Part shown: in pieces, positions 9,069 through 40,210 of the stretch
Numbering within the stretch: the first letter of the stretch is position 1
How the letters are laid out: each line of letters begins with the position of its first letter
Assembly: GCA_020429185.1 (NCBI GenBank)
Contig: JAGQLO010000006.1
Coordinates: forward strand, 1 to 48,852
Reading direction: 5' to 3'
Length of the DNA: 48,852 nt
From: Candidatus Doudnabacteria bacterium
Lineage (GTDB): Bacteria > Patescibacteriota > JABMPQ01 > JAGQLO01
Translations under genes and position numbers: made by a program
Notes under the pieces: generated by a model
What the model was told of the DNA's origin: nothing
The model's input: the letters and a program-made list of their open reading frames with translations, nothing else
The model's database searches: none

Positions 9069-9199
9069 ATGGACGTTTTTTGTTGTGTTTGGTATCTTGC
9101 ATCGTTCTGGTTGTGTTCACTCGAGTGAGGGTAGCTTGAGTGTTTGGGGCGTATTTTTTAACTTGTTGCCATGACTCGGGCTGGAGTTGTGGGAAGGGT

Positions 9200-23950: not shown

Positions 23951-24078
23951 GACGCTAGATAACCTTCCGTGTGCACTGGGCATACGGGTTTAAGGTAATG
24001 CGTCACATTCGCATCATCGTGACGCTGTGCGTTGCGATTCGTGGGTCGGCTCGGCCGGCCAGCAGAGAGGGGCTGAAC
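23951..24078 (+). promoter_or_regulatory. Hairpin-rich 5' leader of the serpin-like gene
   Basis: The leader contains CCGTGTGC/GCATACGG (23967-23987, one G-U pair) and GCGTCAC/GTGACGC (24000-24025). A Shine-Dalgarno-like AGAGAGGGG then lies seven bases before the ATG. Confidence 0.5.
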
Positions 24079-25158: not shown

Positions 25159-25195
25159 GCCCGCCTCTGATCGATGAGGTCGGGCTTTTTCTTTT
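25159..25195 (+). terminator. Terminator of the serpin-like unit
   Basis: GCCCGCCTC pairs with GAGGTCGGGC (one bulged T) and is followed by TTTTTCTTTT. The T-tract touches the stop codon of the convergent uvrC gene at 25194-25196. Confidence 0.82.
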
Positions 25196-27098
25196 ACAAA
25201 TATCTTCGCAGGCGCTCTGTTTTTTCGGTGCCGATCAGTTCTTCAATTTCTTGATCGGAGGCGTCGCGAATACCTTGTACAGATCCAAACTCTTCTAAGA
25301 GTTGTTTCTTGGTTTTGGGGCCAATGCCTGGGACAGAGTCGAGGACAGATGTTACGGTTGATTTGTTGCGACGTGCACGATGGAACGACACAGCAAAACG
25401 GTGCGCTTCGTCGCGGGCACGCGTGAGGAGTCGCAGTGCAGGGTCCGTAAGTGGAAGAACAAGTGGTTCAGATTTGCCAGGAAAGAAGATTTCCTCTTCT
25501 TGTTTGGCGAGTGCCACAATTGGAATACTTTCCAGGTGGAGTTCTTTGAGGACTTCGACACCAATTCCTAACTGGGGTTTTCCTCCGTCGAGTACAAGAA
25601 GGTCGGGGAGTGGCCATTCTTCACCATGACCTGTTTTTGCAGCGTCTCCGTCTGGGTTGTGAGGTGCTGTTGAATGTGTGAAGCGTCGTCGTAACACTTC
25701 TTTCATACGGCGCGTGTCGTCGGGTGCTGCTTCTTCGTTCTTGATTTTGAATTTGCGATATTGATCTTTGTCTGGCTGGCCATTTGTGAAGACCACCATG
25801 GAAGCGACGGGGTTAGAACCTTGCACGTGTGAGACATCGACACATTCAATACGTTCTGGAAGTTGATCAAGTCCGAGTGCTTCTTGAGTGCGTTCAAGTA
25901 TGGCGAGGTTGGCGGACTCTTTTTGTGTGTGCTTTTGTCGTACTTCTCTTGCGTTGGTAAGCGCAAGCTCTGTAAGACGTCGGCGGGCACCGCGTGCAGG
26001 TTTTGAAATCTTGATGTTCTTGTGGTCGAGTTCGAGTGAACCGGCGCGTGTTCCAAGCCAGGTTTCTAGAATGCCAACATTTGTTGGAAGTGTTTCAACG
26101 AAAATTTCCTTTGGGAGTTGTGTAGAGCTTCCATAAAACTGTAGCAAGAACGCTTCCATGGCTTCGGCAGGCGTTTGATTTGCTTCGCGAGACAATGTGT
26201 AGCTTTCACGTGCAACAAGTGAGCTGTTACGAATCACCATGCGCGCAGCAGTGGCACTTGTTTCTTCATCAGTTCCAAAAGCAATGGCAACAATGTCCGC
26301 CTCCTTAAAGGGCACGTTCACAACATCCTGCGGGTTTCCAAGGAGCTTTCCGATGTCGCGGATTTTGTCGCGAAGGTCGGCAGCTTTTTCATACTTCTTG
26401 GCTTCCGAGGCTTTGTTCATGTTGGTGGAGAGTTCTGTGATCAGCTCGGAAGTATCTCCACGTAAAAAAGATTCCAGTTGGCGAACCTGCTCTGTGTAGT
26501 CTTCTTTGGAAATGTATTTTTGCTCTTCGGTGAGTTCATTGAGAACGCAGGGGGCTGTACAGCGTCCAAGATCCTTTTTCAAACAGGGGCGTTTGATAAA
26601 GCTGCTAGGTGTGTCGTCGCGGAGGTTCAATGTGCAGTCGCGAACTTTGAAGGCTCGACTGAGTAAGCGAAGTGTTCGGTTGAGTGAGCCACCTGAAACG
26701 TAGGGTCCGTAATAGTGCGCGCGGCTGTCGCTGATGCGGCGTACCGTTGAAAGTCGTGGATAGTCTTCGGACCAGTCGATGCGAATGTAACGGAAGTTTT
26801 TGTCGTCCTTCAGCATCACGTTGTAGCGCGGTTTGTGCTGCTTGATGAGTGTGTTTTCAAGCAGGAGAGCTTCTTCTTCTGTGTTCACCACAATGTGATC
26901 GATGTGGTGCGCGTTCATCACCATGCGAGCCTTTCCAGACGGTAGTTGATGAAGACGAAGATAACTGGCTCCGCGCTTGCGCAGGTCTTTTGCTTTTCCG
27001 ATATAGAGCGGTTTTCCGGCCTCGGTTTTAAACAAATACACCCCAGGTTGGTGGGGGAATGCTTTAATCGCGGATTCGATGTCTGGGGGGACGGGCAT
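25194..27098 (-). CDS. uvrC: Excinuclease ABC subunit C
   Basis: This 634-residue protein makes both incisions in nucleotide excision repair, acting with UvrA and UvrB. The N-terminal GIY-YIG nuclease is visible as GVYLFKTEAGKPLYIGKAKD (residues 19-38). The UvrB-binding UVR motif lies around residues 210-250. The central cysteine cluster includes KRPCLKKDLGRCTAPC. The C-terminal RNase H-like domain has IECVDVSHVQGSNPVASMV and ends with helix-hairpin-helix repeats (SVPGIGPKTKKQLLEEFGSV). The promoter box ends six bases before the ATG, so the message is probably leaderless. uvrA lies 9 kb downstream; uvrB is not in the window. Confidence 0.97.
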   Translation of the reverse strand: MPVPPDIESAIKAFPHQPGVYLFKTEAGKPLYIGKAKDLRKRGASYLRLHQLPSGKARMVMNAHHIDHIVVNTEEEALLLENTLIKQHKPRYNVMLKDDKNFRYIRIDWSEDYPRLSTVRRISDSRAHYYGPYVSGGSLNRTLRLLSRAFKVRDCTLNLRDDTPSSFIKRPCLKKDLGRCTAPCVLNELTEEQKYISKEDYTEQVRQLESFLRGDTSELITELSTNMNKASEAKKYEKAADLRDKIRDIGKLLGNPQDVVNVPFKEADIVAIAFGTDEETSATAARMVIRNSSLVARESYTLSREANQTPAEAMEAFLLQFYGSSTQLPKEIFVETLPTNVGILETWLGTRAGSLELDHKNIKISKPARGARRRLTELALTNAREVRQKHTQKESANLAILERTQEALGLDQLPERIECVDVSHVQGSNPVASMVVFTNGQPDKDQYRKFKIKNEEAAPDDTRRMKEVLRRRFTHSTAPHNPDGDAAKTGHGEEWPLPDLLVLDGGKPQLGIGVEVLKELHLESIPIVALAKQEEEIFFPGKSEPLVLPLTDPALRLLTRARDEAHRFAVSFHRARRNKSTVTSVLDSVPGIGPKTKKQLLEEFGSVQGIRDASDQEIEELIGTEKTERLRRYL

Positions 27099-27104
27099 GC
27101 AGTC

Positions 27105-27133
27105 AGTATGCAGCGCTTTTTGTGAATTGACAA
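27105..27133 (-). promoter_or_regulatory. uvrC promoter, sharing its -35 with the divergent gene
   Basis: On the minus strand TTGTCA (27128-27133), a 17-base spacer and CATACT (27105-27110) form the promoter. CATACT ends six bases before the uvrC ATG. The -35 box overlaps the plus-strand TTGACA by five bases. Confidence 0.65.
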
Positions 27134-27155
27134 ATGCCTCAATTAAGGGTATTAT
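27127..27155 (+). promoter_or_regulatory. Promoter of the MYG1-like/2H gene
   Basis: TTGACA (27127-27132), a 17-base spacer and TATTAT (27150-27155) lie 36 bases before the ATG at 27192. The -35 hexamer is also used, on the other strand, by uvrC. Confidence 0.7.
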
Positions 27156-27191
27156 TGTTTTGATTAATGGTGCTGAATTTGCGTTGAGCGC

Positions 27192-28622
27192 ATGTCAAAC
27201 GAGCAGAAGACCATACAGACTATCTTTGTGCCAAAGCGTCTTCAGATCGACACGGTTGTGGCGCTCGTTTTGTTGCGTAAGTATGGAGAAAAGTACTATC
27301 CAGGCGTTTCTACAGCAGTACTGACATTTTTTCGGCAACCTCCTGAAGGAAAAACGGCAGAACAGCTTGAACAAGAGGGGATCTTACCTGTCGACATGTT
27401 GGGTGGTGTTTTCGACCACCATCGGGAGACACGTTCACAAGAGACTGAGAGTGTGAGTCAACTTGTTGCGAAGGAGTTGAAGATCCAAGATGATCCGGCA
27501 CTGAAGAAGCTGCTTCGCTTTGCCTATCGTGATGATATTGAGGGAAAGGGCGTTCTTTCTAAAGATGCAATCGACCGTTCATTTGGGTTGCCGGGATTAT
27601 TGAACAATCTGGTGCGTCAGTATCCCGAGGATCCACAGCGTGTATTCGATATCGTCGAGCCCGTGATTTTGGGGCATCTTGCGGAAGAAACTATGCGGCA
27701 TCATGTATTGCCGGATGACTATCGAAAGAAGTTCGATGAAGGAAAGGTGGATGCGTTTCTTATTCCATTTCGTGGGAAGGAGTTACGCGCACTTACGATT
27801 GATTCTGATCGTAAGGGAATGGTTGGTTTTCTAAAGGCGCATCCGAATATCAAAGCAGACATCGTTGCTCAACGATTTGCGAGTGGCCATATCAATGTGG
27901 TTACGAATCAGCAGTTAACGTTGGATCTGGCGGGTGTTGCTGAGCGAATCCGATTGGCAGAAGCTAAGGCGCGTAACATGCATGAGAGTGAATTTGATGC
28001 GAGTAAGCTTCGTGATCGTGCGCGGACGGATGACTTCCCAATGTGGTATTTAGACGATACGTCTCGTACGGTGCAAAATGGTGGAATTGATCCAGAAGGA
28101 ACAGAGCCAACGAAGCTCTCTCTTGAAGATGTGAAATTAGCGATTGTTGAAGGATTGAACGACTCTGACTCACAAAAAAAAGAACGTGTTTCGTCTGATA
28201 AACATCCACGAAGTTCCAAGAATCGAAATAGTGAGCGGGTGGTGTACACTGCGTTGTTTGTAGATGATGTTGCAGCTCTGAAGGCGGCGTTTCCTCCTGT
28301 TCATCCGAACGAGCAGTATCATCACTCAACCATTCAGTACAAGCCGGACGATGGAATCAACGGTATTTCAGTCGGTGTAAAACATTCCATTCATGTGAAG
28401 GGGCGTGTCACAACCGATGCAATTGATGCACTACTGGTCGAGAATAATGCATCTGAAAATGCGTATCCGCATATCACTCTTTCGACAGCAGAAGGTGTAA
28501 AGCCCGTCCAGAGTAATAAAGAGATAGAAACTGCTGCAAAGCGGGGTGAGATTCTTCCGTTGGATGCAACAATCCAAGTAACAGAAGGGTACTACGATGG
28601 GAGTCGAGAGGTGACTCGATAA
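27192..28622 (+). CDS. MYG1-like (DHH-type) protein fused to a 2H phosphoesterase-like domain
   Basis: This 476-residue protein has two recognisable parts. Residues 5-270 resemble the MYG1/UPF0160 branch of DHH nucleases: DTVVALVLLRKYG matches the first helix after the metal motif, and DMLGGVFDHHRE matches DVGGxYDxxxHRYDHHQ. The histidines of the first metal motif are replaced by VPKRLQ. After a charged linker (about 300-345), the C-terminal 130 residues carry two H-x-[ST]-x motifs, HHSTIQY and YPHITLST, as in 2H phosphoesterases that open cyclic phosphates on RNA. An RNA processing or repair role is inferred. It is divergent from uvrC. Confidence 0.6.
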   Translation: MSNEQKTIQTIFVPKRLQIDTVVALVLLRKYGEKYYPGVSTAVLTFFRQPPEGKTAEQLEQEGILPVDMLGGVFDHHRETRSQETESVSQLVAKELKIQDDPALKKLLRFAYRDDIEGKGVLSKDAIDRSFGLPGLLNNLVRQYPEDPQRVFDIVEPVILGHLAEETMRHHVLPDDYRKKFDEGKVDAFLIPFRGKELRALTIDSDRKGMVGFLKAHPNIKADIVAQRFASGHINVVTNQQLTLDLAGVAERIRLAEAKARNMHESEFDASKLRDRARTDDFPMWYLDDTSRTVQNGGIDPEGTEPTKLSLEDVKLAIVEGLNDSDSQKKERVSSDKHPRSSKNRNSERVVYTALFVDDVAALKAAFPPVHPNEQYHHSTIQYKPDDGINGISVGVKHSIHVKGRVTTDAIDALLVENNASENAYPHITLSTAEGVKPVQSNKEIETAAKRGEILPLDATIQVTEGYYDGSREVTR

Positions 28623-28653
28623 CACCCATTTCTTCTTGTTATACCGTTTATTT

Positions 28654-28676
28654 GCCTTAGAAAAGGCATTTTTTGT
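28654..28676 (+). terminator. Terminator after the MYG1-like/2H gene
   Basis: GCCTT and AAGGC flank an AGAA loop, followed by ATTTTTTG, 31 bases after the stop codon. Confidence 0.75.
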
Positions 28677-28712
28677 GCTTATTTGTTTTTCTACTCTTTT
28701 CTTTTGAGGGTA

Positions 28713-28741
28713 TTGACTTTTTATTATATATGTTGTATATT
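28713..28741 (+). promoter_or_regulatory. Strong promoter of the 28876 unit
   Basis: TTGACT (28713-28718), a 17-base AT-rich spacer and TATATT (28736-28741) come close to the sigma-70 consensus, with a T-rich upstream region resembling an UP element. Confidence 0.8.
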
Positions 28742-28748
28742 TCAACTA

Positions 28749-28875
28749 TGCGCGGAGTGTTTCCGCGTTCGTTCGTCCTCATTCCATTTTCTCCGTTTCG
28801 AGGAAGAGGGCATTGACAAGGTCAACTAGTGGCATGCAACGCCCCCGCTTTTGCAGGGGGGTGGAGGAGTGATCC
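28749..28875 (+). promoter_or_regulatory. Hairpin-rich 5' leader and Shine-Dalgarno of the 28876 gene
   Basis: Three hairpins line the leader: CGCGGA/TCCGCG (28751-28767), TTGAC/GTCAA (28813-28825), and CCCCCGC/GC-A-GGGGG (28842-28860). A strong GGAGGAGT (28863-28870) then sits six bases before the ATG. The last hairpin almost touches the ribosome-binding site and could influence initiation. Confidence 0.6.
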
Positions 28876-30468
28876 ATGTCTGACAGCACGAAGAAGCCGG
28901 GTACCGCTGAGGGTGGGACCCGTCGTAGCAGCCGCCGTCCCCGCCGTGGTGCGGGACAGGGTGAGCGTCGTCCGCCGCGGCAGACTGCTGCGGTGGATGC
29001 CAACAACACTGGCGCCGATCAGGCGCTGCAGCCCGCTCCTAAGAAGGGGGGTGAGGGTGGCGGTCGCCCCAAGGGCCGACGTGATGGTGGCCCGCGCAAC
29101 GGCAACCCCGGTTCCGGTCGGCGGCCCCGACCGGCGGACCGCGACGCGCGCGGCAATGGCAACGGCGAGAGTGGGCAGCAGCGGTCGCGGCGCAGCAACC
29201 TGCCCTACTGGGCGTCGACCGGGTGGTTCCGGCCGGTCCCTCAGGGTTCGCGACACCGTAAGCCGAGCGAGATGGTGCGTGGGCACGTGGTCTTGTTGGG
29301 GATCCCGGTTATGCCGGAGGTCCTTAACTGGGCGCAGGCTCGGTTCCTGAGTGACAACCGCAACACCGTCTCGTGGGTGCTCAACCGCACCCCGCCGCCA
29401 CCCCTCGGGGAAGTGGACCGCGACCGCGCGCAGATCGAGTTTGCGGATCTCGTCACGTTGGGGGCCATCACGACCCACCACATGGTTGATGGCGATTCCG
29501 TCGCGTCGGTCATGTCGGAGAATGCGGGTGCGGATCTCGAGTTGCCCCCTCACGTCACCGTGGTCGCTCAGGCGTCCATGGGCGGCGTGGCCGCGGCGCT
29601 CAAGTTGCGGGGTGCGTGCACTCCCGAGCTCGAGCTCGCTGCCGATGCCGCGACGACCAACGTCGAGGTGTGGGATAGCGTCAGCGGCGATGCCCTGATG
29701 GTCCTCGAGGCCATCAAGGGAACGCCTCGCGGCAAGGACTACTACGACATCTTCAGCCAGGTGTTCAACTGGTGGATGGCCGGGTGTTCCGCGAAGGATC
29801 CGGTCGTGGCGACGTTCAAGGCGCACCAGCAGGCCTTCGTCGATGTCGTGGCTGCCACTTCGGCGGCGCAGGCATTGGATCGCTTCTCGGTGCTTGAGGA
29901 TGATGATGACCAGGCACTGACGCCGGACGTGGCGTGGATGTGTCTGGCGCTCGATGAGCCGTACGTCTTGTCACAGATCGGGCGTGCCTTCTGGGTGATG
30001 AACGTTGGTCCGCAGCGTGCTCTCGTGGTGCAGCGGGCCGATTCGTTGATCCTGTCGGTCATGGTGCGCCGTGATCAGCAGGATATCCGGGCGCTGCTTC
30101 GGCTGTCGCCTGGTCTGGGCTACTACACGCGGTTCCCGCTCCATGGGGATCACGACGTGGTTTCTCAGGCGATCCAGATGGCTTTCGACATCGTCGACGG
30201 CAAGTCCGTCGACATGGATCTCTTCAACGAGCTCGTCGGCGAGCTCGAAGAGGCTCGCAAGGCGCACGAGGCTGCGATTCGGGAGGCTGACGAGAGTCGG
30301 CGCCTTCTCGAAGGAATGCCGTTCGGTGATCGTCGGCCGCGTCGGCACGAGCGTCCGTCGAAGCCGGCTCATCAGCCGCGAAACGAGGGGTTCAATCCCC
30401 AGCTGCGCGAGAAGATCGCGTTGCTCCTGCCGCAGCTCAAGGCGCAGCTCGCTGCGCTGCAGGGCTAG
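28876..30468 (+). CDS. Unrecognised GC-rich protein A of a putative paralogous family
   Basis: This 530-residue protein was not recognised. Residues 1-110 are Arg/Gly/Pro-rich and probably disordered, starting with the motif AEGGTRRSSRRPRRGAGQ. The globular part begins near LPYWASTGWFRPVPQG. VVLLGIPVMPEVLNWAQARF lines up with VLGHRVGPGLQGW in the protein at 33114, and HVTVVAQASMGGVAAALKLR followed by VEVWDSVS lines up with MVVIPPTTDALLALLRAEG and RDQWDSIT there. A Glu/Ala-rich coiled coil (about 455-480) precedes a basic C-terminus. GC content is well above that of the neighbouring uvrC and MYG1-like genes. Function is unknown; nucleic-acid binding through the basic tail is plausible. Confidence 0.6.
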   Translation: MSDSTKKPGTAEGGTRRSSRRPRRGAGQGERRPPRQTAAVDANNTGADQALQPAPKKGGEGGGRPKGRRDGGPRNGNPGSGRRPRPADRDARGNGNGESGQQRSRRSNLPYWASTGWFRPVPQGSRHRKPSEMVRGHVVLLGIPVMPEVLNWAQARFLSDNRNTVSWVLNRTPPPPLGEVDRDRAQIEFADLVTLGAITTHHMVDGDSVASVMSENAGADLELPPHVTVVAQASMGGVAAALKLRGACTPELELAADAATTNVEVWDSVSGDALMVLEAIKGTPRGKDYYDIFSQVFNWWMAGCSAKDPVVATFKAHQQAFVDVVAATSAAQALDRFSVLEDDDDQALTPDVAWMCLALDEPYVLSQIGRAFWVMNVGPQRALVVQRADSLILSVMVRRDQQDIRALLRLSPGLGYYTRFPLHGDHDVVSQAIQMAFDIVDGKSVDMDLFNELVGELEEARKAHEAAIREADESRRLLEGMPFGDRRPRRHERPSKPAHQPRNEGFNPQLREKIALLLPQLKAQLAALQG

Positions 30469-30481
30469 GCACGCCCAAGGG

Positions 30482-30567
30482 CCTCCGGCTGACCACCGGA
30501 GGTGTGCCAACACCTTCACGGGCTGACCACCCGCTGCAACTGGCCGTGTATCCGACACGGTTGACCA
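30482..30567 (+). repeat. Tandem hairpins displaying an identical CTGACCA loop
   Basis: CCTCCGG-CTGACCA-CCGGAGG (30482-30502) and CGGG-CTGACCA-CCCG (30519-30533) show the same seven-base loop on different stems. A third hairpin, CCGTGT/ACACGG (30544-30560), is followed by TTGACCA. All lie in the 3' untranslated region of the 28876 gene. Confidence 0.6.
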
Positions 30568-30588
30568 AGTCGTACTTTTCTCGGACCA

Positions 30589-30626
30589 GGCCCAATGCCA
30601 CAGAGCATTGGGCCTCTTTCTTTTGT
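30589..30626 (+). terminator. Terminator of the 28876 unit
   Basis: A perfect 10-bp stem GGCCCAATGC/GCATTGGGCC with a six-base loop is followed by TCTTTCTTTTG. Confidence 0.88.
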
Positions 30627-30694
30627 CTTATGTTAGGCGATTTCTCTGTTTAGACTGTTTAGAGCAGTCGCTTTTTTTTGGTTCCTGCAGACTA

Positions 30695-30722
30695 TTGACA
30701 AAAATATAATATATGCTATATT
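30695..30722 (+). promoter_or_regulatory. Strong promoter of the 30868 unit
   Basis: TTGACA (30695-30700), a 16-base spacer and extended -10 TG-C-TATATT (30717-30722) give one of the best promoter matches in the window. Confidence 0.8.
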
Positions 30723-30723
30723 T

Positions 30724-30867
30724 CTCTCACGACCGTGGTGGGAGTGGTCGAGGGTACACCGCGTGGTGTGCCGATTGGTGAGCGGGCGTCGCCCGTTGTC
30801 ACCGCGTTCTCTCACAATTTGATGATTGTAGATCCGCGTTTCGAGAAGCGGACTACAGGAGTGTGTT
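30724..30867 (+). promoter_or_regulatory. Five-hairpin 5' leader of the 30868 gene
   Basis: Five hairpins fill the leader: CGACC/GGTCG (30730-30750), GGTACACC/GGTGTGCC (30753-30772), GTGA with CGGGC/GCCCG inside TCAC (30778-30802), ACAAT/ATTGT (30814-30829), and TCCGC/GCGGA (30833-30852). AGGAG (30857-30861) follows as ribosome-binding site. Confidence 0.6.
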
Positions 30868-32820
30868 ATGTCCCAGGTAGACATCCAGGGCCTCGCCGGC
30901 CTGCTGCAGGGGTTGGGGGGCGCCCTCGAGGCCCTCAAGAGCGACGCCGCTGCCGGCGCGTTCGAGGGCTTCGACTTCCAGACCGGGCGCGTGGTGCGCT
31001 CGGTCGAGGAGCAGGCGCCCATCCCGGCCAAGGTGGCCAAGCCCAAGCTGAGCGGGCGTGAGCTCAGCGAGGAGATCCGAGAGGCCGGAGAGATCTTCGC
31101 CCGGGCCATGGAGGCGGCCCGCGCGCAGGCTACGGTGTCTGCAGAGCTCGAGGCGAAGGCTGCGCAGGCGGAGGGGAATCCCGCCGTCTACCAGGCCCTC
31201 GTCCGGGCCGCTTCGGAAGCGCGCGACGAGGCGGGTCGCGAGCTCCTGGAGGCCGAACGGGCGGCTGATCGGCTCAAGGTGGCTTACAAGGCTGCCAAGG
31301 TCGACGCGGCGCCGGTCCGGCAGGTCTTCGACGGCACGATGGACGCGACCCTGGCCTACATCCGCTCGCTCGCCCCGAAGGGGCGGCGCACGGACAGGTC
31401 GGAGGTCGTGGCCGAGCCGGTCGAGCGTGACCCGGTTGATCTGACGGAGATCTACGCCCGGGAGATCGAGGCGCTCGAGGGCGCCTACGCCCAGCTCGTG
31501 GGCTGGGTCACGAACGAGCCGCAGCGGGATGCTGAAGGCGAGGTCTTGCTCGATGACGACGGCAACCCGCTCATGGTCGTCGAGAAGGGTTTGTGGAGGG
31601 ACCTCGGCTTCGAGGTCGGGCTGGTCTGGAAGTACGAGGAGGACGACCAGTCCGTCGAGGCGGAGGCCTGGCGCAAGTCGGGCGCTGCTCGCATCTGCGA
31701 GCTCGGGATGCGCGTCGAGGCCTTCCTCAACACGGATGTCGAGGACATCGATGTTGCGGGCTCCTTGGCTTCGCTCCGGCTGGCCGTGTGGGACGCGAAC
31801 ATGGAGGTCCTGCGTATGCGGGCCACCAAGTCGTCTCGCGAGACCAAGACGGCAGTCGCACGGCAGAAGGCCTGGGCTCGTAAGCGAGACCTGCAGGAGC
31901 TGATCCCGGTCGGCTTGGCGTTCCTCGCCCTCTTCCTGGTGCGTGGAATGCAGCGGTCGCAGCGACTGCGCAGCCCCAAGCACCAGTTGGGTTCGGACGA
32001 CCTGCGGTTGCCGACCGAGGGGACCGAGCCGTTCGGGCACGCGTTCCGGCGCCAGCTCCAGCAGAGCGTCCAGATCCCGCGCAAGGTCGAACTCGAGGAT
32101 CTCGTCCAGGCGGTTTTCGACGACCTCGGTCGTCAGGACAACCAGGGTGAGGTGCTCGAGGCGGCGCTGCGTGGACTGCCGCGTCTGAAGGGTGTGAGCG
32201 GCAAGCTGAAGCAGGCTGCGGGCGAGGCGATCGCGTGGTTTGATGGGCGCGAACGGGCCTTCAAGGCCCGGGCCGTGTTCCTGCTCTCGGTGTTCGTTCT
32301 GCGTAGCGTCCACCAGAAGGGGCACCCGTTCGCGCAGATCCTGAAGTTGGCGAACGAGATTCAGGATCGCACGCGGCAGGGGCTCATCGAGTACCTCTGC
32401 CGCGAGGCAGACCTGGACGTGGATCAGGCGGTGAGCCTGGTCACATCGTTCACCACGCCGGCGGACGCCGACTCGACGGAGAAGCGGAACAAGCTCAAGG
32501 TGTGGCAGGTCCTGGCCGCCCTCGTGGGTGGTTTGGAGCTCATCGTGGGTGAAGAGCTCACGATGGGTAGTCGGGCGTGGGATGACCTGCGCAAGGCCTT
32601 GGCCAACTTGACCCGCGCTTTGCCCTCCACACCGGTTTCGCCGAAGGCGATCGAAGCGTCCTCCCCGGACGCGCCGGCTTCCCAGGCCGGTTCCGCCGAA
32701 GGTGGCACCCGCCGCCGCAAGGGCTCGGCTCGCCGACAGGGCGCTGGTCAGAAGGCTGGTTCCCCGGCCGGTTCGCGGACCGCTCGCCGCGCGTTCACGC
32801 GCGGCAATAACGCCAGCTAG
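30868..32820 (+). CDS. Unrecognised GC-rich coiled-coil protein with a possible membrane helix
   Basis: This 650-residue protein was not recognised. Residues 60-160 are Ala/Glu/Arg-rich and strongly helical (coiled coil). An acidic alpha-helical region follows (EIYAREIEALEGAYAQLVGW). One hydrophobic stretch near residue 350 (LIPVGLAFLALFLVRG) may cross the membrane or be buried. The remainder is helical, with a second hydrophobic patch (FKARAVFLLSVFVLR). The last 45 residues are basic and low-complexity and contain AEGGTRRRKGSARRQGAGQ, close to the N-terminus of the protein at 28876 but encoded by different codons. GC content is high throughout. It is monocistronic with its own promoter and terminator. 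Function unknown. Confidence 0.6.
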   Translation: MSQVDIQGLAGLLQGLGGALEALKSDAAAGAFEGFDFQTGRVVRSVEEQAPIPAKVAKPKLSGRELSEEIREAGEIFARAMEAARAQATVSAELEAKAAQAEGNPAVYQALVRAASEARDEAGRELLEAERAADRLKVAYKAAKVDAAPVRQVFDGTMDATLAYIRSLAPKGRRTDRSEVVAEPVERDPVDLTEIYAREIEALEGAYAQLVGWVTNEPQRDAEGEVLLDDDGNPLMVVEKGLWRDLGFEVGLVWKYEEDDQSVEAEAWRKSGAARICELGMRVEAFLNTDVEDIDVAGSLASLRLAVWDANMEVLRMRATKSSRETKTAVARQKAWARKRDLQELIPVGLAFLALFLVRGMQRSQRLRSPKHQLGSDDLRLPTEGTEPFGHAFRRQLQQSVQIPRKVELEDLVQAVFDDLGRQDNQGEVLEAALRGLPRLKGVSGKLKQAAGEAIAWFDGRERAFKARAVFLLSVFVLRSVHQKGHPFAQILKLANEIQDRTRQGLIEYLCREADLDVDQAVSLVTSFTTPADADSTEKRNKLKVWQVLAALVGGLELIVGEELTMGSRAWDDLRKALANLTRALPSTPVSPKAIEASSPDAPASQAGSAEGGTRRRKGSARRQGAGQKAGSPAGSRTARRAFTRGNNAS

Positions 32821-32920
32821 TCGCTGCTAAAGATCGGCCGCATTGGGCACGTGGTCGGTCTGCCTCGCTCTCGCTCCTTCACTCTTCCGACTTCCTCTCG
32901 CTCTTTCGTCGGGGTTTGTT

Positions 32921-32959
32921 GCCCGGTACGTACAACGTGCCGGGCGTTTTCTTTTTCTG
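32921..32959 (+). terminator. Terminator of the 30868 unit
   Basis: GCCCGGTACGT and ACGTGCCGGGC form an 11-bp stem (one G-U pair) with a short loop, followed by GTTTTCTTTTTC. It lies about 100 bases after the stop; nothing else was seen between. Confidence 0.88.
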
Positions 32960-32992
32960 AGATTTTTTTGCAGGAAGTTCTTGGTTAATATC

Positions 32993-33021
32993 TTGACTTT
33001 CTTTCAGAAGTGTTTCATGTT
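32993..33021 (+). promoter_or_regulatory. Probable promoter of the 33114 unit
   Basis: TTGACT (32993-32998) is followed after 17 bases by CATGTT (33016-33021). The -10 box is weaker than in the two preceding units. Confidence 0.5.
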
Positions 33022-33027
33022 TACCAG

Positions 33028-33113
33028 CGTTGTTGGTACTGACTGTACCGTCGCCTCTCATTGAGGCGAACTGAAAAAGGGACCGTTGTCCCAAAGCCAG
33101 AGAAGGAGCAGCG
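33028..33113 (+). promoter_or_regulatory. Three-hairpin 5' leader of the 33114 gene
   Basis: Three perfect hairpins are evenly spaced: GGTAC/GTACC (33035-33049), TCGCCTC/GAGGCGA (33051-33069) and GGGAC/GTCCC (33079-33092). AGAAGGAG (33101-33108) then lies five bases before the ATG. Confidence 0.6.
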
Positions 33114-34193
33114 ATGCCCCTGCCCCCGAGGCTCCCCAAGGGAGCGAAACTGCCATGTTCAGGCGCGACCTTCGTGGTGCACACGAGGCCGCTCGAGGAA
33201 CTGGAACCGCCACGCGGCGTTGATCTGGTGGTCCTCGGACACCGGGTCGGACCAGGCTTGCAAGGTTGGGTGCGGCAATGTCTGCATACCGATGTGCGAG
33301 TTATTGCCGTGCGCGGTACGCAGCCCTCCGATGATTTCGTGTTGCAACGGATGGAGGAGGAGTGGGAAGCGGATACGTACCTGATGACTCGACCTGGGGA
33401 AGCGCCGTCGTTGACGGCGATCGTCGATCATCGACTGTTGCACACGTTGTCGCAGCAGTTTGGTGGGTCGGGTCGTTCGATGATGGTCGTGATTCCGCCG
33501 ACAACCGATGCGTTGCTCGCACTCTTGCGTGCCGAGGGCATCGTGTACGCTGGCATGTTGGACGATGCATCGATCGTCTACCACCAGCGGGACCAGTGGG
33601 ATTCAATCACGCCACTGGGAGAGATCATCGACTACGCTTTGCGCGCTTGGCGTGCGGACCTGAAGGCCTACTCGGCCGTCGTGTCTGCGCTGGCCGGTCT
33701 TCGTGACAAGCTCGGTGATCGTGCCTTCGAGCGTCGTGTCTTCGAGCGCCTTCGTGAAGTGTGGGCAGTTTCTCTGATTGGTGAGCCGGGTAAGGCACGC
33801 GCTGATCTGAAGCGGCGGGTCGACTATTACATGTCGATCGTGCTTCCGGCCTGCGAGGTGCTCGTGGATACTGCTCACCGTGACGGGAACTTGCTGATTG
33901 TCGACGCAACTCGGGCACAGGTGTACGACATCGACGAGATTGCGGCGATTGCGCTCTTCGACGAAGAGGCAGAAGGGACGCAGGTATGCCGCGTCGCGGT
34001 GCGCTGGATGCCGAGTCCGAAGGGTACGAGAGCGGCCGTGTCGCAGATCACGCTGGTGTCGCGAGCGGGCATGCCGGATCTGCGCGAAGCCTTCGGAGTC
34101 GATGCGGGCATGCTGGAGCGGTTCACGTTCCCGGCCTCGCTTCTCGAAGGGCCGAACAAGGCCGAGCTGATGCGGTTGCTCACCGCCGACTAG
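33114..34193 (+). CDS. Unrecognised GC-rich protein B of a putative paralogous family
   Basis: This 359-residue protein was not recognised by name. It shares blocks with its neighbours: VLGHRVGPGLQGW resembles a degenerate first motif of DHH phosphoesterases (GHRxPDxDAxGS) without the aspartates. AIVDHRLLHTL could correspond to the DHH triad. IPPTTDALLALLRAEG plus YAGMLDD matches EPTLDATFAVARALG plus YRGMERD in the protein at 35150. The C-terminal part (WMPSPKGTRAAVSQITLVSR, then DLREAFG and FTFPAS) matches QWRGGTKNRVF, DLRGEVG and FTVPAQ there. No signal peptide or membrane helix is evident. A DHH-like fold with lost catalytic residues is a low-confidence idea. Confidence 0.6.
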   Translation: MPLPPRLPKGAKLPCSGATFVVHTRPLEELEPPRGVDLVVLGHRVGPGLQGWVRQCLHTDVRVIAVRGTQPSDDFVLQRMEEEWEADTYLMTRPGEAPSLTAIVDHRLLHTLSQQFGGSGRSMMVVIPPTTDALLALLRAEGIVYAGMLDDASIVYHQRDQWDSITPLGEIIDYALRAWRADLKAYSAVVSALAGLRDKLGDRAFERRVFERLREVWAVSLIGEPGKARADLKRRVDYYMSIVLPACEVLVDTAHRDGNLLIVDATRAQVYDIDEIAAIALFDEEAEGTQVCRVAVRWMPSPKGTRAAVSQITLVSRAGMPDLREAFGVDAGMLERFTFPASLLEGPNKAELMRLLTAD

Positions 34194-34195
34194 TT

Positions 34196-34231
34196 CCATG
34201 TGTAGGGGCAACACATGGGCTTTTTCTTTTT
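34196..34231 (+). terminator. Terminator of the 33114 unit
   Basis: CCATGTGT and ACACATGG form a perfect eight-bp stem immediately after the stop codon, followed by GC and TTTTTCTTTTTG. Confidence 0.88.
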
Positions 34232-34260
34232 GTCGTATTTTCTCGCGTGGCAAAATTCGC

Positions 34261-34266
34261 TACTCT
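34261..34266 (+). promoter_or_regulatory. Leaderless-type -10 box of the 34273 gene
   Basis: TACTCT ends exactly six bases before ATG 34273. This supports that start over an in-frame ATG at 34198, which lies inside the preceding terminator. Confidence 0.4.
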
Positions 34267-34272
34267 TTTGGC

Positions 34273-35052
34273 ATGACCTACAGTAAAGCTCAGATGCGCA
34301 AGCGCTACATCAAAGGGATTTTCGTTGGTCTTGTGATTGGCGCTCTTGTGATGTTGGTGGGAAGCCAGCTTACAGTTCTTGGAACAAGTGTGTTTGAAAG
34401 TGTGTTCGGTGATACTTCGGAACAGACCGCGCAGGATCGGGCAGAGGAATTGCGTGAACAAGCAGCACGCGGGGGTGGTGAGCCTGAGTCAGAGGATGTT
34501 GAGGCGTCTCAGGAGCCAGAAGAAGAGGAAGTTACCGATGTGGAAGAAGCGGAATCTTCTGAAGATTCCGCAGATGTATCCGAGGAAGAAGAGGTGACTG
34601 AGGAATCGGAAGAGACTCCTTCCTCAACTGCACGTGTGTACGAAAACACGACAGCCGGGTTTGAAATCGATCTTCCTCAAGGTTGGGATGTGACAACGGG
34701 TGCAACGGAAGATGTGCTTTCGCCAACTGACGATACGGATGTGCACGGACACACACATGTGACATCTGGTTTGCTTGTTCGAACACGCACAAAAGATGCT
34801 GAGACATTGTTGCAGGACGTGTACGATGGTTCTTCTGCGCCTGCCTATTACATTGATGCAACTGGCGGTGCGACGGACACAACTGTTGATGGGTATCCAG
34901 CAGTGACGTTTTCGGGAGTGATCGGATATGAGTCCACAACAATCACGGCTATTGATTTAGGAACGATGGTTGTTGAGATCCACGATCCCGGAGAAAAACA
35001 TCAAGATAACGGCCATTACACGGAAGTGTTGAACGCATTTTCTGTGCGGTAG
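34273..35052 (+). CDS. Membrane-anchored protein with acidic linker and PsbP/MOG1-like outer domain
   Basis: This 259-residue protein begins with a basic segment and one membrane helix (IFVGLVIGALVMLVGSQLTV, residues 15-34). A strongly acidic Glu/Ser-rich linker spans about 55-125, and a beta-rich domain of about 130 residues ends the protein. The last domain opens with VYENTTAGFEIDLPQGWDV, a pattern common in PsbP/MOG1-type domains found outside the membrane in many bacteria. Codon use is like the housekeeping genes and unlike the GC-rich units on both sides. Its role is unknown. Confidence 0.7.
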   Translation: MTYSKAQMRKRYIKGIFVGLVIGALVMLVGSQLTVLGTSVFESVFGDTSEQTAQDRAEELREQAARGGGEPESEDVEASQEPEEEEVTDVEEAESSEDSADVSEEEEVTEESEETPSSTARVYENTTAGFEIDLPQGWDVTTGATEDVLSPTDDTDVHGHTHVTSGLLVRTRTKDAETLLQDVYDGSSAPAYYIDATGGATDTTVDGYPAVTFSGVIGYESTTITAIDLGTMVVEIHDPGEKHQDNGHYTEVLNAFSVR

Positions 35053-35079
35053 CCCAAACGAGCGGTGCGGTGATCTTAC

Positions 35080-35107
35080 TTGACACTTCGAATTTTTGTG
35101 TCAATAT
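35080..35107 (+). promoter_or_regulatory. Probable promoter of the 35150 unit
   Basis: TTGACA (35080-35085), a 16-base spacer and TG-T-CAATAT (-10 at 35102-35107) place transcription near 35114. Confidence 0.55.
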
Positions 35108-35149
35108 GGTCAGATGTTCGACGCGTAGCGGCCGTGTTGGTCGTGACGT

Positions 35150-36397
35150 TTGATTGAGCACATCGCACTTTGGCGGGCCTTCGAAGAGGCCTTGAAATCA
35201 GGGGAGAAGGACTTGTTTCTTCTTGAGAGTTCGAGTCGGTACGCATTGCCGGCCGTGTTGTTCGCGGGTGGACACGAGCTCGTGAACGTGGATCGGGATG
35301 CCGACCCGTTTCGTGGACCGCGGGCGGCGAATATCGCGGAGGGTTTCGGTCGCAAGACGCAGGTCGCGCTGGTGGGCAGCCACTGCCGGCCCCGCTTCAA
35401 CGGCCTGGATCGTTTGCTTATGGGTTGGCGCAACGCGGGTGACATGGTCACGCATGTGGCGTCGGCGGCACCTGTGGGGCGCTCGTTCCAGCAGGCGTTC
35501 ATGCCGGACGTGAACGATGACGCGTGGCGTTTCTGCGATACGCGTGCTACGTCGGTGACGGAGCTGGTGCCGGACGGCTGGCTGACCGATCTCGTGCGAC
35601 CGGTGATCCTCGTGGAGCCGACGCTCGATGCGACCTTCGCGGTTGCTCGCGCCCTTGGGCACGGCTACCGGGGCATGGAGCGAGACGTCGCTGCCATCAA
35701 TGGCTGCTGGATCGAGTGGGGCCAGCTGTCCTCCTTCGCACGGGAGTGTGTGTCTCTCACGATGGGGCGTTCGGGGCCTCGGCATCTGTCGCTCGTTCTG
35801 GAACACTTGCTGACGAAGCAGGTGAATCCGGACGCGAGTATCGATCGCCGAACGGCGCTCGGTCGTCTGGTGAAGGCGATGGAGTTCGAGGTCTTCGATG
35901 CCTCGGCCGCGCTGGATCTCGGTGGCATGCAGCTGTCGAAGGACCGTAGTGCTGCAGCGATCGTGGTGCCACAGGGCACGGACGTCGATCTGCGTGAAGT
36001 GGCGGCTCGCGTCATGCGCGACATCGACTCGGACGACTACCGTTCCAGCGTGAACCACGTGCTGTTGCAGTGGCGAGGCGGTACGAAGAACCGCGTCTTC
36101 ACGACCGTGGTCTCGCACTTTCGTTGTGATCGAGATCTGCGCGGTGAGGTTGGACGTCTGACGTCGACCGATCTGAGTGGTGACGATCCGAAGCACTTCA
36201 CGGTTCCCGCGCAGGCGTCTCATCTGCTGGCGCTGTTCTCGGGTGGTGGAACGCATGGCGGCGGCACGCGGCGTTCTGGTAGTCGCTCCGGCGGTGGTCA
36301 TCGGGGTAATAGCGGTCATGGCGGTGGCGGCTTCGGTCGCAGCGGTTATTCCAGCCGCAGCGGTCGATTCGATCCGTCGCAGCATCGCTGGAGCTGA
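35150..36397 (+). CDS. Unrecognised GC-rich protein C of a putative paralogous family, with Gly-Arg tail
   Basis: This 415-residue protein was not recognised by name. VALVGSHCRPRFNGL, ILVEPTLDATFAVARALG with YRGMERD, and the late QWRGGTKNRVF, DLRGEVG and FTVPAQ blocks align with the protein at 33114, suggesting paralogy. The final 50 residues are an RGG-like low-complexity tail rich in Gly, Ser and Arg, containing GGGTRRSGSRSGGGHRG; such tails often bind RNA. The start is taken at TTG 35150 because a stop codon lies just upstream in frame and no ATG follows for over 80 codons. No good Shine-Dalgarno is present, unlike the other GC-rich units. Confidence 0.58.
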   Translation: MIEHIALWRAFEEALKSGEKDLFLLESSSRYALPAVLFAGGHELVNVDRDADPFRGPRAANIAEGFGRKTQVALVGSHCRPRFNGLDRLLMGWRNAGDMVTHVASAAPVGRSFQQAFMPDVNDDAWRFCDTRATSVTELVPDGWLTDLVRPVILVEPTLDATFAVARALGHGYRGMERDVAAINGCWIEWGQLSSFARECVSLTMGRSGPRHLSLVLEHLLTKQVNPDASIDRRTALGRLVKAMEFEVFDASAALDLGGMQLSKDRSAAAIVVPQGTDVDLREVAARVMRDIDSDDYRSSVNHVLLQWRGGTKNRVFTTVVSHFRCDRDLRGEVGRLTSTDLSGDDPKHFTVPAQASHLLALFSGGGTHGGGTRRSGSRSGGGHRGNSGHGGGGFGRSGYSSRSGRFDPSQHRWS

Positions 36398-36422
36398 CTC
36401 GTACTTTGTTCGTGAGTCCGTA

Positions 36423-36461
36423 GGCGTGTTCACTTCGTTGTGACACGCCCTTTTTCTTTTG
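36423..36461 (+). terminator. Terminator of the 35150 unit
   Basis: GGCGTGT-T-CAC pairs with GTG-ACACGCC (one bulged T) and is followed by CTTTTTCTTTT, 26 bases after the stop. Confidence 0.88.
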
Positions 36462-36495
36462 GGTCGTTTTCAGGATTGAATCGATGCCTCATGCG

Positions 36496-36504
36496 TGCTA
36501 GGGT
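36496..36504 (+). promoter_or_regulatory. Possible extended -10 promoter of uvrA
   Basis: TG-C-TAGGGT, about 48 bases before the uvrA ATG, repeats the TGCTA core seen at ftsK and other genes. No clear -35 box. Confidence 0.4.
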
Positions 36505-36551
36505 CGTATTCGCATTGTTGTATGCAATGCTCCTGTGTTTGTTTACTGATT

Positions 36552-39491
36552 ATGACTCGATCTACGACCAACAAAACGACTTCTTCAAAAACAGCAGCGA
36601 CTCGTGCTGCGACCGGCCAGGACATGATTTCTGTACGAGGTGCACGCGTGCACAATTTGAAAAACGTGGATGTCGATATTCCACGTAACAAGCTTGTTGT
36701 GATTACGGGACTTTCTGGTTCTGGGAAGTCGTCTCTTGCGTTTGATACCGTGTATGCAGAAGGGCAGCGCCGCTACGTAGAGTCGCTTTCGGCGTATGCA
36801 CGACAGTTCTTGGGCATTATGGATAAGCCGGATGTGGAACAGATCACTGGCCTCTCTCCGGCTATTTCAATTGATCAGAAATCTGCTTCCCGAAATCCAC
36901 GCTCTACGGTTGGAACGATCACGGAAGTCTATGACTACCTTCGTTTGCTTTATGCTCGCGTTGGTATTCCTCACTGCCCAGAATGTGGGAAGCCGGTTCA
37001 TAAGCAAACACATGAGCAGATTTTGAACGCGATTCTGGAGTATCCGAAGGGAACAAAATTCTTACTCTTGTCTCCGCTCGTGCGTGATAAGAAGGGGGAA
37101 CATAAGAATGCGCTCGTGGGTATTTCTCGTTCTGGGTATGCCCGCGTTCGATTCGATGGCGATGTGTATCCGATTGAAGAGGCGATGGACTTGGATATTG
37201 ATAAGCAACGTAAGCACACGCTTGAGGTCGTTGTGGATCGTGTGCAGTTAGAAGGTACGTCTGCCGATAAGGCACGTCTTGCCGATTCTCTTGAAACAGC
37301 ACTCGATCTTGGTAATGGCCTGATTACGTTGCACTTTCCAGATGAGAAGGATCCAAAGAAACAGGATCGACTGTTCTCTGAACACTTTGCGTGTGCAGAG
37401 TGTGGGGTGAGTCTTTCTGAGCTTGAACCACGTAATTTTTCGTTCAACTCTCCGCATGGGGCATGTCAGAAGTGTTCTGGACTTGGAACAAAACTTGAGG
37501 TTGATCCTGATTTAGTCATTCCAAACAAAAAACTTTCCGTTGCTGAAGGAGCAATTCGACCGTGGTCGTCTACGACGTCTGGTCGCACGTTGTGGTACGA
37601 GCGTGTTCTAGAGGCGGTTGCAACAGAGGAACAGTTTGATGTGCGCGCACCTGTGAAGGACCTGTCTGCGAAGGCGTTGAAGGTCGTGCTGTATGGTTCT
37701 GGCAAGAAGGTCTACACAATTGAAGGAACTGATACGCATGGTCGTCATCGTGTGTTTTCGACGACGTTTGAAGGTGTGATCAACAATCTTGAGCGTCGCT
37801 ATAAGGAGACCGACTCTGACTATATTCGTAAGGAAATTGAGCGCTACATGCGCATCCACGAATGTCCTGAATGTGAGGGAAAGCGATTGCGGCCAGAGGC
37901 ACTTTCTGTGTTGGTGGGAGGAAAAGATATCGCGACAGTGACCTCACTTCCTGTAGATGAGGCGGTGAAGTTCTTTGGTGGGTCACACAAAGATTCGTTA
38001 AAGTTGACGGCACAGGAGAAGAAAATTGGGGCTCAGATTCTGAAAGAAGTTGTGGCGCGTTTAACGTTTCTAACAGATGTGGGTCTTTCGTATCTGACGT
38101 TGGATCGTTCTGCGAACACTCTTTCAGGGGGAGAGGCACAACGTATTCGTCTTGCAACACAGATCGGTTCTGGGCTTACAGGTGTGGTGTACATTTTGGA
38201 CGAGCCGTCGATTGGATTGCATCAGCGAGACAACGATCGACTCATTGCGACGTTGAAGCATCTCCGTGACCTTGGAAATACGGTGATTGTGGTTGAACAC
38301 GACGAGGCAACGATTGAAGAGGCGGACTGGGTGATCGATGTTGGGCCTGGTGCTGGAAAACATGGAGGAAACATCATTGCGCAAGGAACGCCGGCTCAGT
38401 TGAAGAAAGATCCAAATAGTGTGACGGGCGCCTTCCTGTCTGGTGCAGAAGCCATTCCTGTGCGACCTGAGGCAGAGTTGCGAAAGGGAAACGGAAAAGC
38501 ATTGGTGGTGAAAGGAGCAGAGGAACACAGCCTTCGGAATGTTGACGTGGCATTTCCACTTGGAACGTTATTGTGTGTGACTGGAGTGTCTGGTTCCGGA
38601 AAATCTACCTTAGTAGATGACATTCTTGGGAAGGCGCTTGCGGCGCATTTTCACGGAGCAAAAGATCTACCCGGAAAACATAAGGAGATTCAGGGCCTTG
38701 AGCATCTCGACAAGGTCATCCGCATCGATCAGTCACCTATTGGTCGTACACCACGTTCAAATGCGGCCACATACACGGGTGCGTTTACGCCGATTCGTGA
38801 ACTGTTTGCGTCTACACCAGAGGCAAAAATGCGCGGGTATAAGTCAGGGCGCTTCTCGTTTAACGTAAAGGGAGGTCGTTGTGAGGCGTGTCAGGGAGAT
38901 GGGTTGGTGCGCATTGAAATGCACTTCTTGCCTGATGTGTATGTTGAGTGTGAGGAATGTAAGGGTCAGCGCTACAATCGTCAGGCGCTTGAGATTCACT
39001 ACAAAGGTAAGACGATTTCGGATGTGTTGCACATGACGGTTGAGGAGGCTGTGCAGTTCTTCGATGCACTCCCGACGATTCAAAAGCGATTGGATACGTT
39101 GATGCAGGTTGGGCTCGGCTATATCGAACTTGGACAGTCTGCGACCACGCTGTCTGGTGGTGAGGCACAGCGAATCAAATTGGCGACAGAGCTTTCACGT
39201 CGCGCAACTGGACGAACGCTCTATATTCTCGATGAGCCGACGACCGGTCTTCACTTCGAAGATATTCGAAAGCTGCTTTCGGTGTTGAACTCGCTCACAG
39301 ATGCTGGAAATTCCGTGTTAGTAATTGAACACAACCTCGACGTGATCAAGTCTGCTGACTGGCTGATCGATATGGGGCCAGAAGGTGGTTCTGGAGGTGG
39401 AGTAGTTGTGGCAGAAGGCACGCCGTATGATGTGGCGTCGGTAAGCAAGAGTCACACGGGAACGTACCTCGCGCCGTTGTTGAAGAAGTAA
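36552..39491 (+). CDS. uvrA: Excinuclease ABC subunit A
   Basis: This 979-residue protein is the damage-sensing ATPase of nucleotide excision repair. Both ABC modules are complete: Walker [13 protein letters not shown] (near residue 52) and [13 protein letters not shown] (near 680), with signatures [14 protein letters not shown] and [14 protein letters not shown]. The zinc modules are visible as [16 protein letters not shown]...CQKCSG, and [13 protein letters not shown] with [15 protein letters not shown] 36552 ([14 protein letters not shown]) gives a short Thr/Ser/Ala-rich lead before [15 protein letters not shown] at residue 25, which is the usual family start and could be the true one. It converges with the minus-strand gene at 39507. 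Confidence 0.97.
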
Positions 39492-39533
39492 AAAAAAGAA
39501 GGCCTGTTAGCTGGGAGTCGTTCCCAACAGGCC
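39489..39533 (-). terminator. Terminator of the 39507 gene, enclosing its stop codon
   Basis: On the minus strand GGCCTGTT and AACAGGCC close a stem with an inner GGGA/TCCC pair, followed by TTCTTTTTTTT. The TAA stop at 39507-39509 is part of the 3' arm. The T-tract overlaps the end of uvrA on the other strand. Confidence 0.82.
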
Positions 39534-40121
39534 GATGAGCGGTGTTCCGCGTTCGTTGATCCCGACGAACGGGGTGCCGGCAGCCCAGAGCATGACGAGC
39601 GCTTTTCCTGCTGCTCGAAGGGCTTTGTCTGCTTTTTTCTGCGTGTGTGTGTGCACCAGAAAACGCAGGCTTACCATCAAGCATCGCTCAAGCCGGATTC
39701 GACGTGCCTCTGGTAGCTCCGCCATTGTTACCTGCGAAGCATGCAGCGTTCCGTCGGCCAGTGTCCGCAGGTGTTGCCGCACATCCCGTGGATCTTCTGT
39801 GTCCGGAAGATGCTCTTCGAGGATGTCGTAACCCCATCTTGTTGGCTCTCGCGGCCCGTTCAAATCGAACGATTCGGGGGTGTTGATTTCACCCCTCCAG
39901 AATCGTACCGATGCCGCTGTCGAGAGATCGAACGGCAATGGTTCTGGTACGCCCTGCACGATGCATAGGCGTCCAATTTCTAGGCGCATTGGACGTAGTC
40001 CACGCGCTGCTGTGATGGGTGCCAAATGCTGTCTGAGCAGCTTTGCCGTATCGCTGGGGTAGAAATCACCCCAGCTGAAATCTCCGATACGCTGCTCGAA
40101 AGAGCTTCCAGGATTGCCCAT
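39507..40121 (-). CDS. Unrecognised GC-rich protein, minus strand
   Basis: This 204-residue protein was not recognised. It begins MGNPGSSFEQRIGDFSWGDF, has an Arg/Glu-rich middle (EDPRDVRQHLRTLADGTLHA) and ends in a small hydrophobic stretch (ALVMLWAAGTPFVGI) too polar to be a clear membrane helix. ATG 40121 is chosen because a near-perfect Shine-Dalgarno (CTTCCTCCCCC on the plus strand, 40124-40134) lies just before it; in-frame upstream codons to 40190 would cover the promoter. GC content is high. It forms its own unit, convergent with uvrA and divergent from the gene at 40211. No similarity to the other GC-rich proteins was noticed. Confidence 0.62.
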   Translation of the reverse strand: MGNPGSSFEQRIGDFSWGDFYPSDTAKLLRQHLAPITAARGLRPMRLEIGRLCIVQGVPEPLPFDLSTAASVRFWRGEINTPESFDLNGPREPTRWGYDILEEHLPDTEDPRDVRQHLRTLADGTLHASQVTMAELPEARRIRLERCLMVSLRFLVHTHTQKKADKALRAAGKALVMLWAAGTPFVGINERGTPLIGLLGTTPS

Positions 40122-40155
40122 GTCTTCCTCCCCCGGAATGTTCCTGGTCTCGTCG

Positions 40156-40184
40156 ATCCTAGTTGGAGATTTCCCCATGGGCAA
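40156..40184 (-). promoter_or_regulatory. Probable promoter of the 39507 gene
   Basis: On the minus strand TTGCCC (40179-40184), a 17-base spacer and TAGGAT (40156-40161) lie about 35 bases before the ATG. Confidence 0.5.
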
Positions 40185-40195
40185 GCGCAAAGGCG

Positions 40196-40204
40196 TGATA
40201 TCCT
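40196..40204 (+). promoter_or_regulatory. Leaderless-type promoter of the 40211 gene
   Basis: TG-A-TATCCT ends exactly six bases before ATG 40211. The in-frame GTG at 40205 would then lie upstream of the transcript start. Confidence 0.45.
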
Positions 40205-40210
40205 GTGGGT

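Follow-up and report, generated by a model that had tools for sequence, protein, structure and literature searches.

Within a window that consists of one contig of 48,852 bases (from a genome of 0.91 Mb in 44 contigs), we identified two genes, P3 and P4, and probably a third, P1, as likely paralogs derived from a DHH phosphoesterase with a permuted order of motifs. The metal ligands have been lost in these proteins, and they are likely binding proteins; for this reading as a whole we estimate a probability of about 60%. A first-pass annotation of the window had already suspected a DHH core that has lost its aspartates, and this suspicion was borne out by intact relatives and by their fold. The new part of the finding is the permuted motif order. 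The insertion of the genes into a uvrC-P5-P6-uvrA neighbourhood and the genome-wide occurrence of GC-rich orphans are further points beyond the earlier annotation.

Genes and motifs in the window

The three open reading frames are present where they had been described, at 28876, 33114 and 35150 on the plus strand, and show the codon-position bias of real genes. P1 and P3 are preceded by clear Shine-Dalgarno sequences, and P4 has an unsure TTG start. The genes, their flanking neighbours and the motif sites are as follows.

27192..28622, + strand: P5 (flank), conserved neighbour; DHH-like protein of conventional motif order (FDHHRET) whose C-terminal domain is 2H-like
28876..30468, + strand: P1, 530 aa, probably a degenerate permuted-DHH protein, GC3 0.79, Shine-Dalgarno sequence GGAGGAG; the N-terminal 128 aa are Arg/Gly-rich with a net charge of +19
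29284..29322, + strand: motif-II-like strand of P1, HVVLLGIPVMPEV, residues 137-149, Gly at the family Asp position (placed by eye and with MAFFT; weakly supported for P1)
29554..29613, + strand: motif-I-like block of P1, VTVVAQASMGGVAAALKLRG, residues 227-246, no Asp remaining
30868..32820, + strand: P2, 650 aa, GC-rich orphan inserted alongside P1 and P3
33114..34193, + strand: P3, 359 aa, degenerate permuted-DHH protein by comparison with relatives, GC3 0.72, Shine-Dalgarno sequence AAGGAG
33222..33260, + strand: motif-II strand of P3, DLVVLGHRVGPGL, residues 37-49, Asp replaced by Gly
33297..33335, + strand: motif III site of P3, RVIAVRGTQPSDD, DHH gone
33480..33575, + strand: motif-I block of P3, MMVVIPPTTDALLALLRAEGIVYAGMLDDASI, one Asp of DxDG and the following Asp retained
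34198..35052, + strand: P6 (flank), conserved, with one membrane segment predicted; its homolog adjoins that of P5 in genome G005
35150..36397, + strand: P4, 415 aa with the start unsure, likewise a degenerate permuted-DHH protein by this comparison, GC3 0.73; the last 51 residues are rich in Gly, Ser and Arg
35360..35398, + strand: motif-II strand of P4, QVALVGSHCRPRF, residues 71-83, Asp replaced by Gly
35603..35698, + strand: motif-I block of P4, VILVEPTLDATFAVARALGHGYRGMERDVAAI, one Asp retained
36242-36367: C-terminal tail of P4, Gly/Arg/Ser-rich

Relationship among the window genes

On the basis of sequence comparison, P3 and P4 are homologous. A single BLASTP comparison of the two gave E=5e-4, and their global alignment yielded z=4.3, with a score that none of 200 shuffles reached. 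In a tree of 11 rows P3 grouped with P4 (82/89); this tree is saturated, with very long branches of 4-7.5 changes per site, and P1 was not placed in it. Branches of this length would be compatible with fast change in an adaptive role, as had been suggested, and equally with a relaxation of constraint once the active site was gone.

Matching blocks in the same order had been reported for all three proteins. The blocks are indeed collinear in P1, P3 and P4, with block 2 at residues 227-246, 123-147 and 152-175, respectively, and with a DLR/DIR block at each C-terminus. The WDSVS/WDSIT block is restricted to P1 and P3, and its only counterpart in P4 is WGQLS.

The proposal of divergent paralogs is firm for P3 and P4 and holds as probable for P1. 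BLASTP comparisons of P1 with P3 and with P4 were not significant, and the global z values were 0.4-0.5 for P1-P4 and 1.5-1.7 for P1-P3, as would fit a GC-rich P1 gene that has no relationship to the other two and in which the blocks match by chance. With an eight-member profile of relatives, P3 scored 10.2 bits and P4 8.7 bits (0/500 shuffles for both), and P2, not claimed as a member, scored as high as P1 (2.2 bits, 2/500 shuffles, and 0.8 bits, 1/500 shuffles, respectively). Profile-profile comparison, one of the checks proposed with the first annotation, points the other way: P1 matched a family profile that contains P3 and P4 with E=0.004 and a score of 27-30 over 88 columns and in the right place, whereas the maximum was 23.3 among 16 other proteins (including 11 GC-rich ORFs from the same genome) and 22.6 among 100 shuffles. 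P1 also reached z=2.9-3.0 to two relatives, shares the Asp-to-Gly change and has a DIR block at its C-terminus. We consider an unrelated P1 rather unlikely; P1 is probably the third copy.

Within P2, residues 300-351 matched the permuted-DHH profile in its C-terminal strand region at a borderline level (E=0.04-0.06; 2/500 shuffles). This match is possibly due to chance, and we do not claim P2 as a fourth member. A scan of the genome for more copies, also proposed earlier, found none.

Relatives in other Patescibacteria

The window proteins had been regarded as an undescribed family, and they gave nothing above cut-off in Pfam, NCBIfam, PHROGs or PADLOC. No relatives of P3 were found in the genome contig collection and none of P1-P4 and two relatives in the viral contig collection, and there was no match of the G006 member (see below) to phages or of P3 to plasmids. 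A P3 search of 58 genomes identified a single gene in genome G006, from the same order (E=3.4e-4). The G006 protein also recovered P3 (E=5.7e-4), so that the match holds in both directions, and it led to homologs in G115 (49% identity), G005 (E=1.8e-15), G192 (8e-8) and G008 (2e-4). The family is sparse: 380 genomes from this phylum contained 5 relatives. When 84,980 species were scanned, 6 loci were returned, all in Patescibacteria and including two from Uhrbacteria and one from Magasanikbacteria; by sequence, two of the six are the already known G006 and G115 genes.

Some candidates were rejected. A match in G214 (E=0.007) is MurG and reflects chance, and P0008 and P0009, DHH-bearing neighbours of the relatives, were not supported as members. 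We also note two orphans that adjoin permuted-DHH genes (L006:11346-11915 and L031:6968-7930) and in which DHH precedes a motif-I-like stretch that contains Asp (NLDSVGAAA and DADMTFAVAA, respectively). Homology of these two to the permuted-DHH family or to each other was not established.

Family members have about 340 aa. Their layout consists of a hydrophobic strand that ends in Asp (motif II), DHH (motif III), a spacing of about 50 residues, DxDG (motif I), and then Tyr and Asp. Five members can be aligned along their length and have invariant Asp, His, Asp-Gly and Asp residues, the last Asp-Gly of DxDG being invariant. According to the alignments, the catalytic Asp of motif II, the DHH of motif III and the DxD of motif I are all present in the intact relatives (G006, G115, G192, G005 and L041-L043), and beyond motif I these proteins continue with a linker of helices, followed at the C-terminus by an alpha/beta domain where DHHA1 would be. 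The G008 protein is partly degenerate (TEH; HANCMDG) and thus intermediate. GC3 of the family genes was above that of the surroundings in G006, G115 and L041-L043 (0.83-0.95), but not in the AT-rich G192 (0.24).

The DHH signature, attributed at first to the first block of the window proteins, is recognizable there only in part, being spread over two blocks. All three window proteins have Gly at the position of the motif-II Asp and lack DHH; in motif I, P3 and P4 retain the last Asp, and P1 retains none. With the metal ligands lost, P1, P3 and P4 should not catalyze by the DHH two-metal mechanism, and would probably bind their target without cutting it.

Insertion into a conserved neighbourhood

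The order P5, P6, uvrA and the gene at 40205 (window 25194-41269) is kept in G005 and G001, indicating a conserved neighbourhood. In G005, homologs of all four genes are consecutive in one orientation, with a gap of only about 50 bases between those of P5 and P6, and uvrC is located upstream, two genes away and in the opposite orientation. The P5 and P6 homologs in G001 again lie ahead of uvrA, with a TruD-like gene among those between them. The distance from uvrC to uvrA in G002 is 1.1 kb. Since relatives have no copies at this site, P1, P2 and P3 are additions between P5 and P6, and P4 is an addition between P6 and uvrA. Judged from this gene order, the window copies are lineage-specific GC-rich insertions. 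The "unrelated unit" that had been noted between the copies is P2, which we find to be GC-rich as well, and the supposed housekeeping-like gene is P6, which is conserved and has a predicted membrane segment but is not a housekeeping gene.

The high GC content described for P1, P3 and P4 was confirmed (GC3 0.72-0.79), and the added genes together have GC3 values of 0.72-0.87, compared to about 0.43-0.50 in P5, P6, uvrC and uvrA. In a 274-kb sample of the genome (median GC3 0.49), 17 of 202 ORFs (about 8%), a few of which may be spurious, exceeded a GC3 of 0.66, so that GC-rich orphans are a general class in this genome. This scattered class was noted at 9140-10603 and 23971-25119 of the window and in genome sample L071-L086, and nhaA and an orphan next to uvrC are among its genes.

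An alternative is that the inserted genes are acquired GC-rich cargo in decay, former permuted-DHH enzymes that now persist as drifting ORFs without function. The absence of the catalytic residues, the extreme branch lengths, the failure to find close relatives anywhere searched, the lineage-specific insertion and the abundance of GC-rich orphans in the genome would all fit such decay. It is nevertheless unlikely, because three to four adjacent ORFs are intact at 359-650 codons, show a strong bias by codon position and have ribosome-binding sites, and because small genomes lose useless DNA quickly.

The C-terminal domain of P5 is 2H-phosphoesterase-like (HHSTI...PHITL), with a weak Pfam match to tRNA_lig_CPD (E=0.0017), and the stand-alone homolog in G053 also matches LigT. 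DHH has been lost in the P5 homologs of G005 and G001. A closer kinship of P5 with P1, P3 and P4 was not supported by comparison. GC-rich genes adjoin P5 homologs at L050:8401-9414 (G111) and L049:1711-2949 (G040), and these genes may be decayed P5 copies. Both ends of the former match P5 collinearly, with a score reached by 3/300 shuffles; the likeness of the latter to P5 was judged by eye only.

Permuted motif order and DHH-type fold

The native order of motifs in the family is II-III-I, while the known DHH order is I-II-III. Native members remained below the cut-off for the Pfam DHH family (PF01368; 28.1 bits), with only the later part matching and motif I outside the match. We rearranged the sequences by placing the motif-I segment of 38-40 residues ahead of the motif II-III segment. 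L042 cleared the cut-off only when rearranged (29.4 bits, compared to 20.0-22.0 for controls with shuffled segments), and rearranged G192 scored 24.3 bits, compared to 20.0-21.1 in its controls. Real segments at the front gained 4-8 bits over the native order or the controls, whereas shuffled segments gained almost nothing. The native-order profile matched archaeal RecJ (5yh1) in two blocks of swapped order, profile positions 22-59 at chain residues 133-169 and profile positions 89-116 at chain residues 46-72, the second block being weak alone. As far as motif comparisons can tell, these results show that the family core is a circular permutation of the DHH motif order, and this order accounts for the failure of profile libraries to recognize the family. 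Searches of 5.4 million open papers gave no account of a circularly permuted DHH protein, and within this scope such a permutation of the phosphoesterase core in nature seems to be undescribed.

That the family is DHH-like but unpermuted, with DxDG after DHH by coincidence, is very improbable in view of the gain from moved real but not shuffled segments, the start of native Pfam matches past motif I and the invariant last Asp-Gly of DxDG, even though motif I is short, the second 5yh1 block is weak and the whole-length native-order profile recovered no DHH protein among PDB sequences.

Structure prediction and fold search, likewise suggested with the first annotation, were informative for an intact relative but not for P3. 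For the G192 member, AlphaFold2 gave a model with a mean pLDDT of 81.6 from 5 sequences. In a Foldseek search of the PDB, all 24 matches at E<=0.001 were DHH-superfamily entries, among them PAP phosphatase (1.6e-6), archaeal RecJ, RecJ-Cdc45, PggH, NrnA and yeast exopolyphosphatase, which we take to be a member of the superfamily. TM-scores were low (0.17-0.48), as expected if the chain is permuted and the aligner works sequentially, although this is not proof of permutation. On the evidence of the model, the family is of the DHH phosphoesterase type. The C-terminal domain is composed of strands and helices in the model, has no GGGH and did not match PF02272. In the P3 model (overall pLDDT 57), strands alternate with helices across most of residues 11-150, where pLDDT is 74-85, but the model matched nothing in the PDB.

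Comparison with known DHH proteins and proposed role

By Foldseek, the intact relatives resemble the fold of DHH/DHHA1 phosphoesterases such as archaeal PAP phosphatase (8a8k), PggH and the nanoRNase/pApase NrnA, with which they share motif II, DHH, DxDG, a similar length and the combination of DHH core and C-terminal domain. They differ in having motif I after motif III and a C-terminal domain without a visible GGGH signature; the window copies differ further in lacking the catalytic residues. The motif II-III segment is closely similar to that of RecJ and archaeal GAN nucleases (5yh1, 5x4h; VVIVDNGGT...KIVVIDHHD vs VVFVDNPAT...VVIVRDHHD), but the family is shorter, permuted, and without an OB domain. 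CDC45 and several archaeal RecJ homologs are a precedent for DHH-fold proteins without an active site (PMC3307487, PMC4873980). Their likeness to the window copies is a functional analogy only; they are unpermuted replication subunits conserved across phyla, whereas the window copies are lineage-specific. If functional, the window copies would add to CDC45 another example of a DHH enzyme that has become a protein without cutting activity. Recognition of the permuted family makes testable proteins of a number of Patescibacteria orphans.

The ancestor of the window copies would have been a circularly permuted DHH-type phosphoesterase, sparse in Patescibacteria. By analogy with characterized DHH proteins, the intact relatives are expected to be metal-dependent phosphodiesterases of small substrates (nanoRNA, pAp, or cyclic or linear dinucleotides). 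The window copies, as GC-rich additions to the conserved uvrC-P5-P6-uvrA neighbourhood, would most likely have retained the fold and work by binding nucleotide or nucleic acid without cutting. Since P1 and P4 bear Arg/Gly-rich tails, the ligands may be RNA, ssDNA or nucleotides, and the copies may perhaps act in partnership with the adjacent DHH protein P5. A more general scheme, in which permuted-DHH paralogs that are inactive and bear tails are inserted next to an active DHH protein (here P5) and sense or regulate a nucleotide signal or short RNA without cutting, is a speculation that we consider doubtful.

A basic stretch (AEGGTRR...RR.GAGQ) is common to the N-terminus of P1 (28876-28983) and the C-terminus of P2 (32695-32760), indicating that these two adjacent GC-rich genes carry similar disordered tails.
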